Positions 46,310 through 53,950 of a stretch of DNA of 64,000 nt are shown one piece after another. A program made the translations under genes and the position numbers. Origin of the DNA: an uncultured Rhodospira sp. GTDB lineage: Bacteria; Pseudomonadota; Alphaproteobacteria; Rhodospirillales; Rhodospirillaceae. The stretch is from NCBI RefSeq assembly GCF_937138205.1, contig NZ_CAKZOT010000079.1, positions 1 through 64,000 on the forward strand, in the 5' to 3' direction. The stretch's first letter is position 1, and each line of letters starts with the position of its first letter. Under the pieces are notes generated by a model. It worked only from the letters and a program-made list of their open reading frames with translations, did not search any database and was not told the origin of the DNA.

Positions 46310-47095
46310 CTAAATCAGGAACAGATTGTCCAACGCCGCGAACAGATCGTCGCCAAAGGCCGCGCCCTTGTGGATGATCGGCACCTTCTTCGGGATCAGG
46401 GCCAGCATCTCGCTGTCCGGGTCCAGGCTGGTGATCAACGCAGTGGGAATGTTCCGCGTCTCCGGCATGGCGGTCAGGCCGATGGTCAGGTCGATCCCGC
46501 TCAGCCCCGGCATGACGGCCGAGATGATCACCAGATCCGGCTTGGTCCGCACGATCAGGGGCAGGGCCTCGAACGTCGAGCTGATCTGGACGGTTCGGTA
46601 GCCGCACTGCTGCAGTTCGCGTTCGACGAAATGGGTCTGCGTGCCCGGCTCCATCACCAGCATGACCTCGACATCGCGCACGTCGATGTCGCTGGGCGCG
46701 AAGCCACGCTTCGGCGGCAGGCGGCGGACCAGCGGGGCCGGTTCCGTGTCGAGGGACACCCGCCCCTCGGTCACGTCCAGGATCACAGAAAGGAATCGTT
46801 CGAGGTCCTCAAGCACCAGATCGGTCGGAACGGTGCCGGTTTCCGACAGATAGTCGCCAAGGCGCGTGCCGATCGCGCACAGAGGGCCCAGTTCAAGGGT
46901 TTCGCCCTGCGCCCGCATTGACAGGCCCAACCGCTGGCCGGTGCGCAGAACACGCCCCAGTTCATCCGGATTGTGGCGCGCGTCCTCGATGCCCAGCACC
47001 AGTTCGCGGCTGGCATCGGCGACTTCGTCCAGAAAGTCCTGGCGCATCTCTGACAGAACGGCCTGCGCACCGGATGTCACGTCACGTTCTCCCAT
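46310..47095 (-). CDS. pseudo-receiver protein with N-terminal helical domain
   Basis: 261-residue protein from the ATG at 47095. Residues 1-115 are mostly helical and charged, possibly HPt-like but without an obvious phospho-His. Residues 142-260 follow the response-regulator fold, yet the acidic pair at the start is replaced by VMEP. The phosphorylation Asp is replaced by Ser192 (PDLVIISAVMPGLSG), while the Thr/Ser (ALITS) and the Lys (HKG) positions are kept. It therefore cannot be phosphorylated in the usual way and may bind a partner. It is 57 bp downstream of the hemerythrin gene, same strand, likely same operon. Confidence 0.75.
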   Translation of the reverse strand: MGERDVTSGAQAVLSEMRQDFLDEVADASRELVLGIEDARHNPDELGRVLRTGQRLGLSMRAQGETLELGPLCAIGTRLGDYLSETGTVPTDLVLEDLERFLSVILDVTEGRVSLDTEPAPLVRRLPPKRGFAPSDIDVRDVEVMLVMEPGTQTHFVERELQQCGYRTVQISSTFEALPLIVRTKPDLVIISAVMPGLSGIDLTIGLTAMPETRNIPTALITSLDPDSEMLALIPKKVPIIHKGAAFGDDLFAALDNLFLI

Positions 47096-47152
47096 GACCG
47101 GGATCCACCTTCGCGGTACAGTTCTTGGGCGAGCGCCCCGCAGTTCCTTCAT

Positions 47153-48364
47153 TCAAGCGTGTTGGATGGCCGTATCTTCAATATCGGCGGCGTCGCGCAA
47201 GCTCTCCAGCAACTCCGGGTCCACGGTCATGGCGGCGGCGATCGCCTGGGCATCGGTGTTGTGCTCAACGTACGGCTTGTATCGCATGTCCTCGCCCAGA
47301 ACATGGTTCACCAGCCAGCTTTTGAGCGATGCCTGAAGGTCCTGGGCGGTCACGGACTCGGGATTATTCTGGTACGCATCCAGCCATTCCCGGACCTGGT
47401 TTTTCAGGGTGGAGTGGCGCAAGGCGTGTTCTTCGGCGCCGGGGAAGTTGGCCGCGCGCAACAAGGCTTCCTCGCGCTCGAAGTGGTACGCGGCATAGTC
47501 CCACAGGCTGTTGAGAACACTGCCCACGACCCAGTCGCTTTCCGGGGCGCGAAATGCCTGTCCGAGCTGGTTGATGAGGTTGATGAGGATGCGATGGTCC
47601 TTGTCCATCTCGGGCACGCCCACGGACCACCGCTCGGTCCATTCCAGAAGCGGGATCTCCTCGTCCGCGTCGGCGACATCCACCATGTCGAGATCGGTGT
47701 CCATGCCGGGCGCCGGATCGGCGGTGGGCGGGTCGACGGCGGCGATATCCTCGTCCTCGGCGCGCTGCGTTGGGTCAGAGGGCAGGGCCTCCTCGAACAC
47801 CAGCTCATCGGCTGCCGCGTCATCAGGGTTGGAGTCGGTCTGGATCGGCTCCGGGTCTGTGTCGGCGCCGGTGTCGGCGGGCTCCGCCAGTTCCAGGTCT
47901 TCGATATCGCTGTCGTCGGTGCCGGCCTCATCCGCCACGGCGACCTCCGGCTCCGGCTCCGGCTCAAGGTCCGGGGCTGGCGGCGTGTCGGGAGGCTGTG
48001 TCGGGTTGGCGTTGCCGCCGGTGCCGAACACCTCGGAGACAAGCGCTTCGGAGCGGGAAATGGCCGTGACCACCTCCGAGTCCTCGCGCTCCATCGCGTC
48101 CACGTTCTCCCGGACGCGCTCCGTCAACGTTTGCAGGGCGGATATCAGGGCCTGGTTGACCGATTCCAGCACACGGATCTGCTCGTCCTTGCTATGCAGA
48201 TCCTGGACCATGGACTGGTAGCGCTGCTCAACCACCGTGAACAGCTCGTTGAGTTTATGCAACTGCGTTTGGCGTGTGGTCTGGCGTCCGTTCAGACTGG
48301 AAACAGCCTGTTCCGCCGCCGCGATCACGTCGCTGGCGACCTCTTTATGGTCCTGTCCGCCCAT
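47153..48364 (-). CDS. coiled-coil, acidic-linker, bacteriohemerythrin protein
   Basis: 403-residue soluble protein in three parts. Residues 10-105 are a predicted coiled coil (HSKDEQIRVLESVNQALISA). Residues 120-240 are a Pro/Asp/Glu-rich low-complexity acidic linker. Residues 250-375 are a hemerythrin domain with all seven di-iron ligands visible: MDKDH, AAYHFEREE, EEHALRH, and VNHVLGED. Hemerythrin domains bind O2 (or sense redox). The coiled coil suggests oligomerisation or docking on a receptor. It is divergent from the glycosyltransferase operon with a 154-bp shared intergenic region, and is followed by the pseudo-receiver gene. Confidence 0.88.
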   Translation of the reverse strand: MGGQDHKEVASDVIAAAEQAVSSLNGRQTTRQTQLHKLNELFTVVEQRYQSMVQDLHSKDEQIRVLESVNQALISALQTLTERVRENVDAMEREDSEVVTAISRSEALVSEVFGTGGNANPTQPPDTPPAPDLEPEPEPEVAVADEAGTDDSDIEDLELAEPADTGADTDPEPIQTDSNPDDAAADELVFEEALPSDPTQRAEDEDIAAVDPPTADPAPGMDTDLDMVDVADADEEIPLLEWTERWSVGVPEMDKDHRILINLINQLGQAFRAPESDWVVGSVLNSLWDYAAYHFEREEALLRAANFPGAEEHALRHSTLKNQVREWLDAYQNNPESVTAQDLQASLKSWLVNHVLGEDMRYKPYVEHNTDAQAIAAAMTVDPELLESLRDAADIEDTAIQHA

Positions 48365-48518
48365 GTCCTCGCGACCTCCTGTCCCCACGCGCTGCATGAC
48401 GTGCGGATACTATCATGGAGATTCGTCCGGGACAAAGTGGCCTTCGGTCGAGGATTACGGTGTGAACGACGCGACACAAGCCACGGGAACCATGGGGGCA
48501 ATACACGCTGAAGGAGCC

Positions 48519-49744: not shown

Positions 49745-51868
49745 GTGTCGGATGGTCCTCGCGCGCGCATCTGTCTGGTGACCACCGAAATCCTGGGCGT
49801 GACCCGGACCGGCGGCATCGGCACCGTGCTGGCGGCGCTGGCCGACCTGCTGGTGTCCGAGGGGCACGCGGTCACCGTGCTGTGCCTGAATGGCCGGGCC
49901 GTCATGGACGGTGATTTCGACGCCTGGGTGACGCACTATCGCCGGCGCGGGGTCACGCTCGAAGCAATGCCGCCCCCCGGGGGCGATCCGGCCACACCGC
50001 CCATGGCCGGCCTCTGGGCGCACGGAACGCTGGCTCGGCGTTGGCACGTCCTGCGCTGGCTGGACGCGCGGGCCTTCGATCTCGTGCATTTCAACGACTG
50101 GGGCGGCGAGGCGTTTCTGTGCGGCCGGAGTCGGCGGCAGGGTCTGGCGCTGCGCAAGACGCAGCTGGTGATGGGCCTGCACGGCGCGTCGGACTGGACC
50201 CTGGCCGGCAACGACACCCTGCCGGACGATCTGGCGCGGTTGGTCCAGATTGATCTGGAGCGGGCGGGACCCGCGGTGATGGACGCCGTCTGGTCGCCGG
50301 GGCCGTTCATGCCGGATTGGCTGGCCACGCGGGGAACGCCGGTCCGTGACCTCCGGGTCATGCCGCAACTCATGCCCGACCCGGGGCCACCGCGTCCGGT
50401 GGACGACGCGGCCCCCATCGTCGAGCCCGTGCTGTTCGGGCGGCTGGAGGACCGCAAGGGCGTGCCGGTGCTGCTCGACGCCCTGGATCGTCTGGCATCA
50501 CGGCCCGGCCCGCATCCGGAGCGCGTGACGTTCCTCGGCCGGGCCAGCACCATCGGTGGCGAGCCGGCGGCGCGGGTGATCGCCCGACGGGCTTCGGCCT
50601 GGCCGTGGCCGGTGCAGGTGCTGGACCGGCTCGACCGGGCGGCCGCGCTGGACTACCTGCGCGGGCCGGGGCGGCTGGCGCTGGTCCTGGCGCCGATGGA
50701 GAACTGCCCGCTGACGCTGCATGAGTGCCTGGCCATGCGGGTTCCTGTTCTGGCCAGTGCCACGGGCGGAAACCCGGCCCTGATCGCGGCGACAGACAGG
50801 GAGCGGGTGCTGGTTCCCTACGACGCGGAAGCCCTGGCTAAACGGCTTGGCGCGGTGCTCGGCCGGCCTTTCGGCCCGGCGCGTCCGGCGTTCGATCCGG
50901 ACGAAGCGGTGCACGCCTGGCGGGCCTGGCATCGCGCGCTGTTGGCCGATCCGTGCGAGGCGGACGAGGCCAAGGCGGCGAGGTCCGTGACAGAAATCAC
51001 GGTGCTTCGCGTGCCGACGGCCCGACCTGAGGCGGGTTGGCACGCCGTGCTCAAGGACATCCAGGCCCCGGAGGACGCCGTATGCTTGGTCACCGACGCC
51101 GACACCCTGCGGCCGCGCGCGCTGGAGACCCTTGCAGCGGTCATGAACCGCACCGGGGCTGACGTGCTGGCGCCTGGTTGGGTCGAGGGCGACGAGGCGC
51201 AGGGCCGAGCGCGGCTGTGTCTGGACTCGGCGCCGATGAGCGCCTGTCTGGTCAACGCGGCGGCCGGCCCTGGCCTGGTCCTCGGACCGCGCGCGCGGGC
51301 GGTCGCGGCGCGTGAATGGGATCCGGCGTCCGGGCTGTGGGGGCTGGTGGCCGCGTGTCTGGCCGCTGGCCTGCGCCACGAGGCCGTTCCGTTCGTGCTG
51401 CTGGACCGAACGCCTCCGTGGCGGGATGCAGCGACGGCGCGTGCCCGGGCGCCGCGCCTGTGGGCGGCGCTCGGTCGTCCGAGCGATCTGGACCTGATCG
51501 CTGCGTTTGCCAGCGCGGTTGTGGCGGAGACGGAGTCCGGGGGATCGCGTCTGGGCGCGCCGCCGGGCGACGCCGCATCGCGCGCGGCCCGGCGCGACCG
51601 CCGGCGGGCGCGCGCCCTGTGGCGCTCCTGGCCCTGGCGTTGGACCCGCCCGTGGCGGAACCGGCGCCGGGTGCGACGCGGATTGCCGCCGGAACCGGTC
51701 GACCCGCCGCCCTTGTCGGCGCCGGGCGCGGCGAGCGCGGTCTTGTACGACATGTTGCGTTCGCGGTCGTGGGCGGTGATGGCGGGTCCGCGGCTGGTGG
51801 CGAACCTCGTGCGATGCGTGTGGCGCCGTGCCCAAGGTTGCATCTGGCGAAAAGACATGAGACGTTGA
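49745..51868 (+). CDS. family 4-type glycosyltransferase with extra C-terminal domain
   Basis: 707-residue protein with a GTG start at 49745 after AAGGAA. Residues 1-390 are a GT-B fold: ICLVTTEILGVTRTGGIGT at the N-terminus, as in starch/glycogen synthase-like GT4 enzymes. The nucleotide-sugar side follows, with VLFGRLEDRKGVPVLLDALD and the EX7E-like ENCPLTLHECLAMRVPVLAS. Residues about 410-610 add a second region resembling part of a GT-A domain (DADTLRPRALETLAAVMNR). The last 100 residues are strongly basic. The combined architecture is unusual. It is cotranscribed with the GT2 gene and probably builds a specific glycan; the acceptor is unknown. Confidence 0.8.
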   Translation: MSDGPRARICLVTTEILGVTRTGGIGTVLAALADLLVSEGHAVTVLCLNGRAVMDGDFDAWVTHYRRRGVTLEAMPPPGGDPATPPMAGLWAHGTLARRWHVLRWLDARAFDLVHFNDWGGEAFLCGRSRRQGLALRKTQLVMGLHGASDWTLAGNDTLPDDLARLVQIDLERAGPAVMDAVWSPGPFMPDWLATRGTPVRDLRVMPQLMPDPGPPRPVDDAAPIVEPVLFGRLEDRKGVPVLLDALDRLASRPGPHPERVTFLGRASTIGGEPAARVIARRASAWPWPVQVLDRLDRAAALDYLRGPGRLALVLAPMENCPLTLHECLAMRVPVLASATGGNPALIAATDRERVLVPYDAEALAKRLGAVLGRPFGPARPAFDPDEAVHAWRAWHRALLADPCEADEAKAARSVTEITVLRVPTARPEAGWHAVLKDIQAPEDAVCLVTDADTLRPRALETLAAVMNRTGADVLAPGWVEGDEAQGRARLCLDSAPMSACLVNAAAGPGLVLGPRARAVAAREWDPASGLWGLVAACLAAGLRHEAVPFVLLDRTPPWRDAATARARAPRLWAALGRPSDLDLIAAFASAVVAETESGGSRLGAPPGDAASRAARRDRRRARALWRSWPWRWTRPWRNRRRVRRGLPPEPVDPPPLSAPGAASAVLYDMLRSRSWAVMAGPRLVANLVRCVWRRAQGCIWRKDMRR

Positions 51869-51917: not shown

Positions 51918-52337
51918 ATGAATGAAATCGGACCCGAACACGCGGCTTTGCGCCGGGTCCTGGTCGTCGAGGACGATCAGGCCGTCCGCGAGTTGGCCGC
52001 CGTGGCGTTGGCCGACGTCGGTGGCCTCCAGGCTCTAACCTGTGCGACCGGCACCGAGGCGTTGGAGCGGGGGCCTGGTTTCGGCCCGGATCTGTTGCTG
52101 CTTGATTTGCAGCTTGCCGATATCGACGGGCCGGAGCTGTTGCGGGCGTACCGGGCCAAGCACGGGCCGGCGACGCCGCCGACGGTGTTGCTGACCGGGC
52201 GGCCGGATCTGGCGGAGGACACCCGGTCGGCGGACCCCGCGATTATCGGCGTGCTGGCCAAGCCGTTCGAGCCCATGTCCCTGGCGGAGCGACTGCGGGG
52301 CATGTGGCAGGGTTGGCGGGACGCAAGCCGGTCATGA
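51918..52337 (+). CDS. single-domain response regulator
   Basis: 139-residue CheY-like receiver without an output domain. The acidic pocket VVEDD (residues 17-20), the phospho-acceptor Asp63 in LLLLDLQLADIDG, Thr in VLLTGRP and Lys in VLAKPFEP are all intact. The ATG at 51918 lies 8 nt after GGAGGGGAAG. Its stop overlaps the next gene by 4 bp (ATGA), so the pair is translationally coupled. It probably exchanges phosphate with the HPt domain of that protein. Confidence 0.93.
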   Translation: MNEIGPEHAALRRVLVVEDDQAVRELAAVALADVGGLQALTCATGTEALERGPGFGPDLLLLDLQLADIDGPELLRAYRAKHGPATPPTVLLTGRPDLAEDTRSADPAIIGVLAKPFEPMSLAERLRGMWQGWRDASRS

Positions 52338-53950
52338 CGGATCTGCCTGATGGGAGTGGGTCGCGGGGGCGTGAGGCGGTCCAGGCCACCGTTGTCTCGT
52401 TTCTTGCCACGGCTGGCGAGCAGTGCCGTGCGCTTGTGTCGGACCTGTCGGACCTTGACCGGGCGACCGACGCAAATGAAGCGATGGCGGCACTGCACCG
52501 AATGGTCCGGACGGCGCATAAGCTGGCGGGCTCGGCCGGCTCGTTCGGGTTTCCAGCCTTGGGGCGGCGGGCGTCGGCCCTGGAGTTCCTGTTGGAGGGC
52601 ATCCTCGGGCGTGATGCACTGCCTTCGCCGTCCGTCCGGGCGCAGGTCGATCTCCTGGCCCGGCGTTTGGCCGATCGCGTCGCGGTCCTGACCGTGGACC
52701 AGTCAAGTCTTGTGGCCGGCGGCGCCCTGGATGGTGGCGCACCCAGTGACGCGCGCCGGCGGATGCTGCTGATCGGCCCGGAGGCTGACGAATCTTTGGC
52801 GCGATTGGCCGAGCGGATGGAGGGCTACGGCTGGCGCGTGGACTGGCAGGCCAACGCCGCGATGGGGGAGGACCCCGCGCGGTCCGGTGACGCGCCCGCG
52901 CCCGGCATGATCCTGGTGGACGGAGACGCCGGTTTGGATGCGATCGCGGCGTCCCGGCGGTGGGTCTCGGGCGGCGGTATCTGGCCCGACGTGCCCTGGT
53001 ACGTCGCCGAAACCCGGCCATCGGCCGGGACTCGGGCGGCCGCAGTGGCGGCCGGATGTGCCGGTGTCTTCCATAAGCCCCTTGTCGCGGAGGCCCTGCT
53101 GGATCATCACGCGGCTGTTCTGGACGCGACGCGAGACGAGGGGCCACGGGTCATGATGCACGACCCCGAACAGGCGATCGCCGGAATGGTCCGGCATGTG
53201 CTGAGTGAGGCCGGCGCCCTGGTGGAGGTGGTCGAGGATCCGGACCTGCTGATCCATGGACCGGACGGAGCGAACGCGGACGATGGTGTCGACGTCGTTG
53301 TCGTGGCGGCGCGCGGGGCTGAGACCAACAGTTTCGACGGGGCCTCCCTGGCGATGACGCTCCGGCGGGATCCTGCCTGGGCCGGGGCCGGACTCGTGCT
53401 GGTGGCGCCGCCAATTGATCCGGGGCCGATGGCCGAGACTCTGGCTCGGGGTGGCGATGTGGTGGTGTCCGCGCCGTTCGAGCCGGACCTGCTCGTGGCC
53501 ACCGTGCTGGGGCAGGCGACGCGGGCGCGCGACTGCCGTCGGTCCGCCCGACGCGAGGGACTCGGGCCGCTTCTGGTCCGGGACGCCATGGACGAGGTGC
53601 TGACTCGAAAGATCGACCGCGCGGTGGCCCTGGACCTGCCGCTGGTCGTCACCTGGCTGGCGCCGGCGTGCGCGCAGGCGTTGAGACCGGAGGCCGATGC
53701 CGTTTTGGCCCGCTTGCTGCGGGAAACCCTGCCGGCCTCGGATTTAGCCGGGCGCGCGCCGGGAGAGGGCGTGGCGGTGGTGCTCGGGGTCTCGACGGAC
53801 GCCGAAGCCAAGTCTGTCCTGGATCGGATCGCGGCCGGGCTGGCGCGCCTCTGTGACGGGTGCGGGCTGGTGTCCGGCGTGGCCACGGCCACGCCCGGCG
53901 ACACGGCAGCGACTCTGCTGCAACGCGCCCGCACTGCCGCCGGCGCGTGA
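52334..53950 (+). CDS. HPt / double receiver-like / degenerate GGDEF protein
   Basis: 538-residue soluble signalling protein. The N-terminal HPt domain has the phosphorylatable His62 in RTAHKLAGSAGSFGF. Two receiver-like regions follow (about 142-270, opening RRMLLIGPEAD, and 275-405, opening PRVMMHDPEQAI) without a clear phospho-Asp pocket. The C-terminal region (about 415-536) resembles a GGDEF domain in layout, with DLAGRAPGEGVAVV at 470-483 where active enzymes have R-GGDEF, and VSGVATATPGDTAATLL near the end. The catalytic motif is lost, so it is not expected to make cyclic-di-GMP. It overlaps the response-regulator gene by 4 bp. Confidence 0.8.
   Translation: MTDLPDGSGSRGREAVQATVVSFLATAGEQCRALVSDLSDLDRATDANEAMAALHRMVRTAHKLAGSAGSFGFPALGRRASALEFLLEGILGRDALPSPSVRAQVDLLARRLADRVAVLTVDQSSLVAGGALDGGAPSDARRRMLLIGPEADESLARLAERMEGYGWRVDWQANAAMGEDPARSGDAPAPGMILVDGDAGLDAIAASRRWVSGGGIWPDVPWYVAETRPSAGTRAAAVAAGCAGVFHKPLVAEALLDHHAAVLDATRDEGPRVMMHDPEQAIAGMVRHVLSEAGALVEVVEDPDLLIHGPDGANADDGVDVVVVAARGAETNSFDGASLAMTLRRDPAWAGAGLVLVAPPIDPGPMAETLARGGDVVVSAPFEPDLLVATVLGQATRARDCRRSARREGLGPLLVRDAMDEVLTRKIDRAVALDLPLVVTWLAPACAQALRPEADAVLARLLRETLPASDLAGRAPGEGVAVVLGVSTDAEAKSVLDRIAAGLARLCDGCGLVSGVATATPGDTAATLLQRARTAAGA

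Follow-up and report, generated by a model that had tools for sequence, protein, structure and literature searches.

What could an HPt protein still do with a receiver and GGDEF tail after catalysis in that tail has ended? The question is raised by a gene at positions 52334–53950 on the forward strand of the window, the 64,000-nucleotide stretch of DNA from an uncultured Rhodospira sp. that was analysed here. The gene begins with an ATG at 52334, ends with a stop codon at 53948–53950, and encodes a 538-residue protein in which an HPt domain is followed by two predicted receiver folds (REC1 and REC2) and a predicted GGDEF fold. Judged by its sequence, the window protein is a lineage-specific degenerate form of an order-wide HPt-REC-REC-GGDEF family. 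This one family spans a series from an apparently intact enzyme to a pseudo-enzyme: the proteins that lost the REC2 switch also lost the GGDEF output, and they retained the phosphotransfer head. The family offers a test case for the role of degenerate receiver and GGDEF domains once catalysis ends.

The HPt domain spans residues 36–107 (52439–52654, forward strand) and is matched by Pfam PF01627 at E 4e-9, with 37 bits against a cut-off of 24.6. Residue His62 (codon 52517–52519) lies within the motif AHKLAGS, and neither it nor the HPt core motif varies in an alignment of the six Rhodospira/Roseospira-group homologues, the window's own included. His62 is thus an ordinary HPt site, as a sequence-only reading of this locus had proposed. 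The same reading had described an overlap with an intact single-domain response regulator, and the two genes indeed share the 4 bp ATGA. The response regulator (51918–52337, forward strand; Pfam Response_reg, E 7.2e-17) contains an acidic pair, Asp, Thr and Lys, and these residues are the same in 13 aligned homologues (14 rows).

Past the HPt domain, profile searches recover little. No receiver domain was found in the window protein by the Pfam scan, and its GGDEF match, over residues 458–534, is sub-threshold (15 bits against a cut-off of 23.8, E 0.021). Across the six group members the same scan reported HPt in all six, GGDEF in two and a receiver in two, with E-values of up to 1. NCBIfam gave the window protein no usable name, and its CheA model matched weakly at 20.2 bits against a cut-off of 950.

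Structure prediction was more informative. A first AlphaFold2 model was built from 11 aligned rows (mean pLDDT 85.0); because some of these rows carry an intact GGDEF, a second model was built from the six degenerate group members alone (mean pLDDT 79.5). The order of strands and helices is nearly identical between the two. Both models contain the HPt helices, two five-strand alternating receivers at residues ~141–268 (REC1; 52754–53137) and ~270–400 (REC2; 53141–53533), and a GGDEF fold at residues ~401–538 (53534–53947), all encoded on the forward strand. The top Foldseek match in each case is PleD, the REC-REC-GGDEF diguanylate cyclase of Caulobacter (2wb4_B, E 2.5e-18 for the 11-row model; 2v0n_A, E 3.2e-19 for the group-only model). 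PleD is also the best PDB match of the family profile, which includes intact relatives.

Comparisons with VIA-align aligned 137 residues of the GGDEF part to 3ign in the 11-row model (Z 18.5, rmsd 1.9), and the group-only model gave Z 17.9 against the same structure. Similarly, REC2 of the 11-row model aligned with DivK (1m5t) over 122 residues at Z 17.5 and rmsd 1.8. REC1 was covered only within the PleD alignments, which start at residue 141–142, and the HPt part was barely covered; the REC1 fold is accordingly assigned from these PleD alignments and from the strand-helix order of the models. Receiver-like and GGDEF folds in the C-terminal two thirds, posited in the sequence-only reading, are therefore all predicted by two models, and the absence of such folds that would speak against it did not occur. 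The models thus indicate that the shape of the receivers and of the GGDEF domain is kept although the REC2 and GGDEF sites are lost.

That loss is extensive. The window protein carries GRAPGEGVAV at residues 473–482, where RAPGEGVAV (53753–53779, forward strand) replaces RxGGEEFAV; this substitution, recognised in the sequence-only reading, is seen both in the sequence and in the family alignment. The columns of the metal-site DxD and the substrate-site Asn-Asp hold APA and gaps, respectively, and the substrate-site segment is short, with an 8-column gap in the alignment between the first GGDEF strand and the I-site. Metal-site DxD, Asn-Asp and GGEEF are gone in all six group members, so that the suggested check of conservation finds His62 kept and the signature altered throughout the group. 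With all three motifs lost, cyclic-di-GMP synthesis would not be expected, in agreement with the earlier proposal. HPt-GGDEF proteins of this kind should not be called cyclic-di-GMP synthases.

The two receivers differ in how much they retain. In REC2 of the window protein the Asp, Thr/Ser and Lys columns are occupied by A, A and A, and both the Asp and the Lys are lost in all six group members. In REC1, the models place D196 at the end of strand 3 and K248 directly after strand 5; D196 is invariant in the group and K248 is present in three of six. The acidic-pair columns of the window protein read P149-E150-A151, with one acidic residue, and the Thr/Ser column holds Glu in a stretch where the alignment is uncertain. 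Roseospira visakhapatnamensis (L051) has A-E-D at the pair but lacks the Lys, and the pair is incomplete in the other five, so that a complete REC1 phosphorylation site is found in none of the six. The earlier statement that the receivers lack an obvious Asp pocket holds for REC2, while REC1 keeps an Asp.

The ancestry of this protein was traced through its relatives. Matches were present in 34 of 60 searched genomes, the window's own included, and a full-length homologue was present in each of the six genomes, again with the window's own, that share its genus code, which places the observation beyond chance. The other five are 38–51% identical to the window protein, and the named records of the group are Roseospira marina, R. 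visakhapatnamensis, R. navarrensis, Rhodospira trueperi and a Rhodospira MAG. A scan of genome contigs with the single window protein as query found no relative; with an alignment as query it returned 25 loci. At a threshold of E 1e-30, 222 of 248 genomes across the order had a match, although many of those listed covered only the receiver-GGDEF part.

From the matches listed, 58 distinct rows spanning HPt to GGDEF were taken, the window's included and one (L057) from a Gemmatimonadota MAG. Thirteen duplicates, one partial sequence (L123) and L079, which is the window itself, had been removed before this count, and Marinobacter L060–L062, the kinase fusion L020 and matches that lack the HPt part (e.g. 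L021) never entered it. The rows were chosen by rank with a profile that included degenerate members, and their proportions are therefore no unbiased census. Among these listed rows the signature reads GGEEF in 45 and GGQEF in one, and is changed in the other 12; 56 rows have RxxD, and the HPt His is likewise present in 56. The two rows without this His, L048 (Ser) and L108 (Cys), keep GGEEF, which indicates that HPt is not indispensable everywhere.

Loss of the switch and loss of the output coincide in these rows. REC2 Asp and Lys are both present in 48 of the 58 listed rows, comprising all 46 GGEEF/GGQEF rows (the single GGQEF row among them) and two rows with DGGRF. In the other ten rows REC2 is broken, through loss of the Asp, the Lys or both; all ten have an altered signature and all keep the HPt His. 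They are the six group members, L056 (Pararhodospirillum oryzae), L037 of the same genus code, in which the REC2 Asp is kept and the Lys lost, and L041 and L018, both with the signature GGETF. REC1 drifts across the family, with its Asp in 41 of the 58 listed rows. The window protein has the full-length homology and the domain order of the family but neither the intact REC2 nor GGEEF, and for this reason it was filed as a degenerate descendant instead of a working member.

In the tree, the group is recovered as a single clade of six members (support 100/100) on a long branch. The best tree places L056 and L037 beside the GGEEF-bearing L045 (G031) with support 85/86, away from the group. Joining L056 and L037 with the group was not rejected (p-AU 0.222), and a separate origin of the losses in this sister genus is therefore not claimed. 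Counted over the tree, the joint loss of REC2 and GGDEF amounts to between two (starred branches) and three (all branches) independent pairs, a number at which significance is unreachable. L121 and L122, from two genomes of another family, have DGGRF for GGEEF and AID for DID with REC2 intact, and represent a different route to a possibly inactive GGDEF within the HPt-REC-REC-GGDEF family. The Marinobacter frames L060–L062 encode HPt-REC-REC proteins that stop right after the second receiver, with no GGDEF part in the same frame.

The closest known systems are PleD for the REC-REC-GGDEF fold and PopA for the degenerate GGDEF. The window protein shares the REC, REC, GGDEF order with PleD; unlike PleD, it has a leading HPt domain and its catalytic residues are gone. 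In PleD the first receiver is the phosphorylated one, whereas the HPt-REC-REC-GGDEF family keeps REC2 (46 of 46 GGEEF/GGQEF rows) and lets REC1 drift. No paper on this family was found by domain string, title or start of abstract in the open-licence literature. In the excerpted text of a survey of Azospirillum two-component proteins the architecture is not mentioned (PMC4618731), and HmrABCX, as far as the excerpt of its source describes it, is a different system (PMC11481889).

What the tail-bearing HPt protein serves is suggested by its neighbour. The response regulator adjoins the HPt gene in all six group members. In the wider family such pairing is frequent and not universal: a strong response-regulator match lies upstream in 26 of the 58 listed rows, the window among them, a weaker receiver match in 13 further listed rows, and none in 19, two of which have fewer than 500 bases of upstream sequence. 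The order kinase, response regulator, HPt protein occurs at L040, L041, L043 and L055, four of the nine loci whose upstream frames were scanned. The kinase directly upstream at each of these four bears PAS and is a hybrid in all except L040. L040, L043 and L055 carry GGEEF and L041 is an altered row; L040 and L041 also have a second kinase, with a receiver and an HPt, downstream of the HPt protein. The scan detected no kinase at L036, L037, L046, L051 and L052; the scanned frames are the longest frames in GC-rich DNA, and those without a Pfam match may not be genes.

At the locus of the six group members no kinase was detected, and the donor would have to be encoded elsewhere. In the window's own genome, the protein closest to the L040 kinase is 36% identical to it across a part of its length. 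When the group genomes were searched with the L040 kinase, G003 and G001 yielded the better candidates, on other contigs; those in G000, G002 and G005 were weaker, and G004 gave nothing at E 1e-60. The kinases from G003 (L124) and G001 (L125) are 43% identical to the L040 kinase over ~510 residues, and by sequence they are candidates for the missing phosphate donor.

It is therefore proposed, as a probable though by no means secure explanation, that the window protein is a phosphotransfer protein that serves its coupled response regulator from a distant kinase and carries a non-catalytic scaffold tail. Sequence and models show descent from an HPt-REC-REC-GGDEF response regulator that, by its residues, was a diguanylate cyclase, as its intact relatives may still be. 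In the group lineage the cyclase output and the neighbouring REC2 have decayed, and the HPt, the response regulator and the predicted overall fold have been kept. A histidine kinase elsewhere in the genome may phosphorylate His62 via the kinase's own receiver; His62 would then hand the phosphate to the response regulator of the overlapping gene, and may also take phosphate back. The pseudo-receivers and pseudo-GGDEF may dimerise or dock partners, with cyclic-di-GMP presumably no longer made. Because the predicted fold is kept, the C-terminal two thirds probably have a structural or docking role, the nature of which is a guess.

A different use for the tail would be that of a PopA-like receptor, in which cyclic-di-GMP bound to the I-site of the dead GGDEF domain controls phosphotransfer or docking. 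The excerpted text of PMC10333796 describes PopA of Caulobacter, which joins two receivers to a degenerate GGDEF domain with RxxD, as a well-characterised cyclic-di-GMP receptor, and the window protein resembles the PopA described there in having two receivers and a GGDEF domain without the signature. The messenger is probably present in the cell, since the window's own genome has 21 GGDEF matches. RxxD is kept in four of six group members, as it is in nearly all of the listed family rows, and these four could, by their residues, still bind cyclic-di-GMP there; R. visakhapatnamensis and Rhodospira trueperi, the latter with RSSD, are among them. The Arg, however, is lost in the window protein (PASD) and in R. 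marina (SPTD), so that in these two the role would have been lost or moved to another site. The window protein further differs from PopA in its extra HPt domain and in the overlapping response regulator gene. For the window protein, a PopA-like role is considered unlikely.

A bolder form, which we hold to be just as doubtful, is that a former cyclase regulator has become a phosphotransfer hub, whose pseudo-domains sense a ligand and gate the flow of HPt phosphate to the adjacent response regulator; the ligand, as part of the same joint claim, would be cyclic-di-GMP in the species that bear RxxD and something else in the window's. A further known system with some likeness to the window protein is the Caulobacter hybrid kinase ShkA, in which a pseudo-receiver has lost phosphotransfer, serves control and binds cyclic-di-GMP, and in which the linker joining the two receivers contains a conserved charged motif, according to the excerpted text of PMC7010744. 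The window protein has RDEGPR at residues 267–272 between its receivers, and R272 does not vary among the group members; the likeness to the ShkA linker as excerpted is a lead only. Unlike ShkA, the window protein is not a hybrid kinase.

Pseudo-receivers could also act by binding a kinase and inhibiting it, without moving phosphate. Osp and FixT are receiver-like kinase inhibitors that lack the acidic residues, and in the excerpted text of PMC9430884 Osp inhibits CckA and phosphorylation of these proteins is not seen. The two receiver folds of the window protein, neither with a complete site, would fit such a role. Pure inhibition, however, would need neither the invariant His62 and HPt core motif nor the intact adjacent response regulator, and Osp and FixT are single-domain proteins with no HPt or GGDEF fold. 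An Osp/FixT-like function is accordingly judged quite improbable.

The sequence-only reading had instead connected the protein with glycan synthesis, as a sink for phosphate or a scaffold through which the state of the phosphorelay would be coupled to the glycosyltransferases encoded next to it. Glycosyltransferase genes do lie directly upstream of the response regulator/HPt pair on the same strand: a GT4-like frame stops at 51868, and a 49-base gap separates it from the response regulator at 51918. The next large downstream frame with a syntenic homologue is on the opposite strand. GT2 and GT4 genes adjoin the pair in four of six group members (the window, L050, L053 and L054). In the remaining two, G001 and G005, the GT4 homologue is on a different contig from the pair; in G005 the pair lies on a contig of 7,468 bases, with ~1.7 kb preceding the frame of the response regulator on its upstream side. 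Furthermore, no homologue of the window's glycosyltransferase genes was found in 16 compared loci outside the group. Within the group, conservation thus extends to the pairing with the response regulator but not to the glycosyltransferase neighbourhood. The adjacency stood and the functional link proved weak, and coupling to these enzymes is regarded as very unlikely.

In four of the six group members the neighbourhood also includes a receiver-like protein beside a hemerythrin protein. The receiver-like protein (46313–47152, reverse strand; 280 aa) scores 24.8 bits against a receiver cut-off of 30.2 in Pfam and has IISAVMP in its phosphosite region, with Ser at the expected Asp position. In the hemerythrin protein (47153–48397, reverse strand), a long middle part, acidic and of low complexity, is followed by the hemerythrin domain at the C-terminus (E 7.6e-14).

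Selective constraint was estimated by the Nei–Gojobori method. Between the window protein and that of R. trueperi, dN/dS is 0.42 overall and 0.30, 0.31, 0.62 and 0.49 in the HPt, REC1, REC2 and GGDEF parts, values that are rough because synonymous differences are near saturation. In all five pairs computed, dN/dS is below 1 in every domain, with 0.26–0.51 in the HPt part. Decay of a functionless gene, suggested by several lost sites and the lowest identity of ten compared genes, is extremely improbable, since the frame is open in all six genomes, at 38–51% identity to the window protein in the other five, dN/dS is below 1, the folds are predicted intact and His62 is invariant. The HPt gene is 51% identical to its R. 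trueperi counterpart, and the nine other neighbouring genes are 57–91% identical with dN/dS of 0.07–0.36; this low identity, together with synonymous sites near saturation, leaves room for relaxed constraint. Of the ten genes, the HPt gene shows the weakest constraint but has nevertheless been retained.
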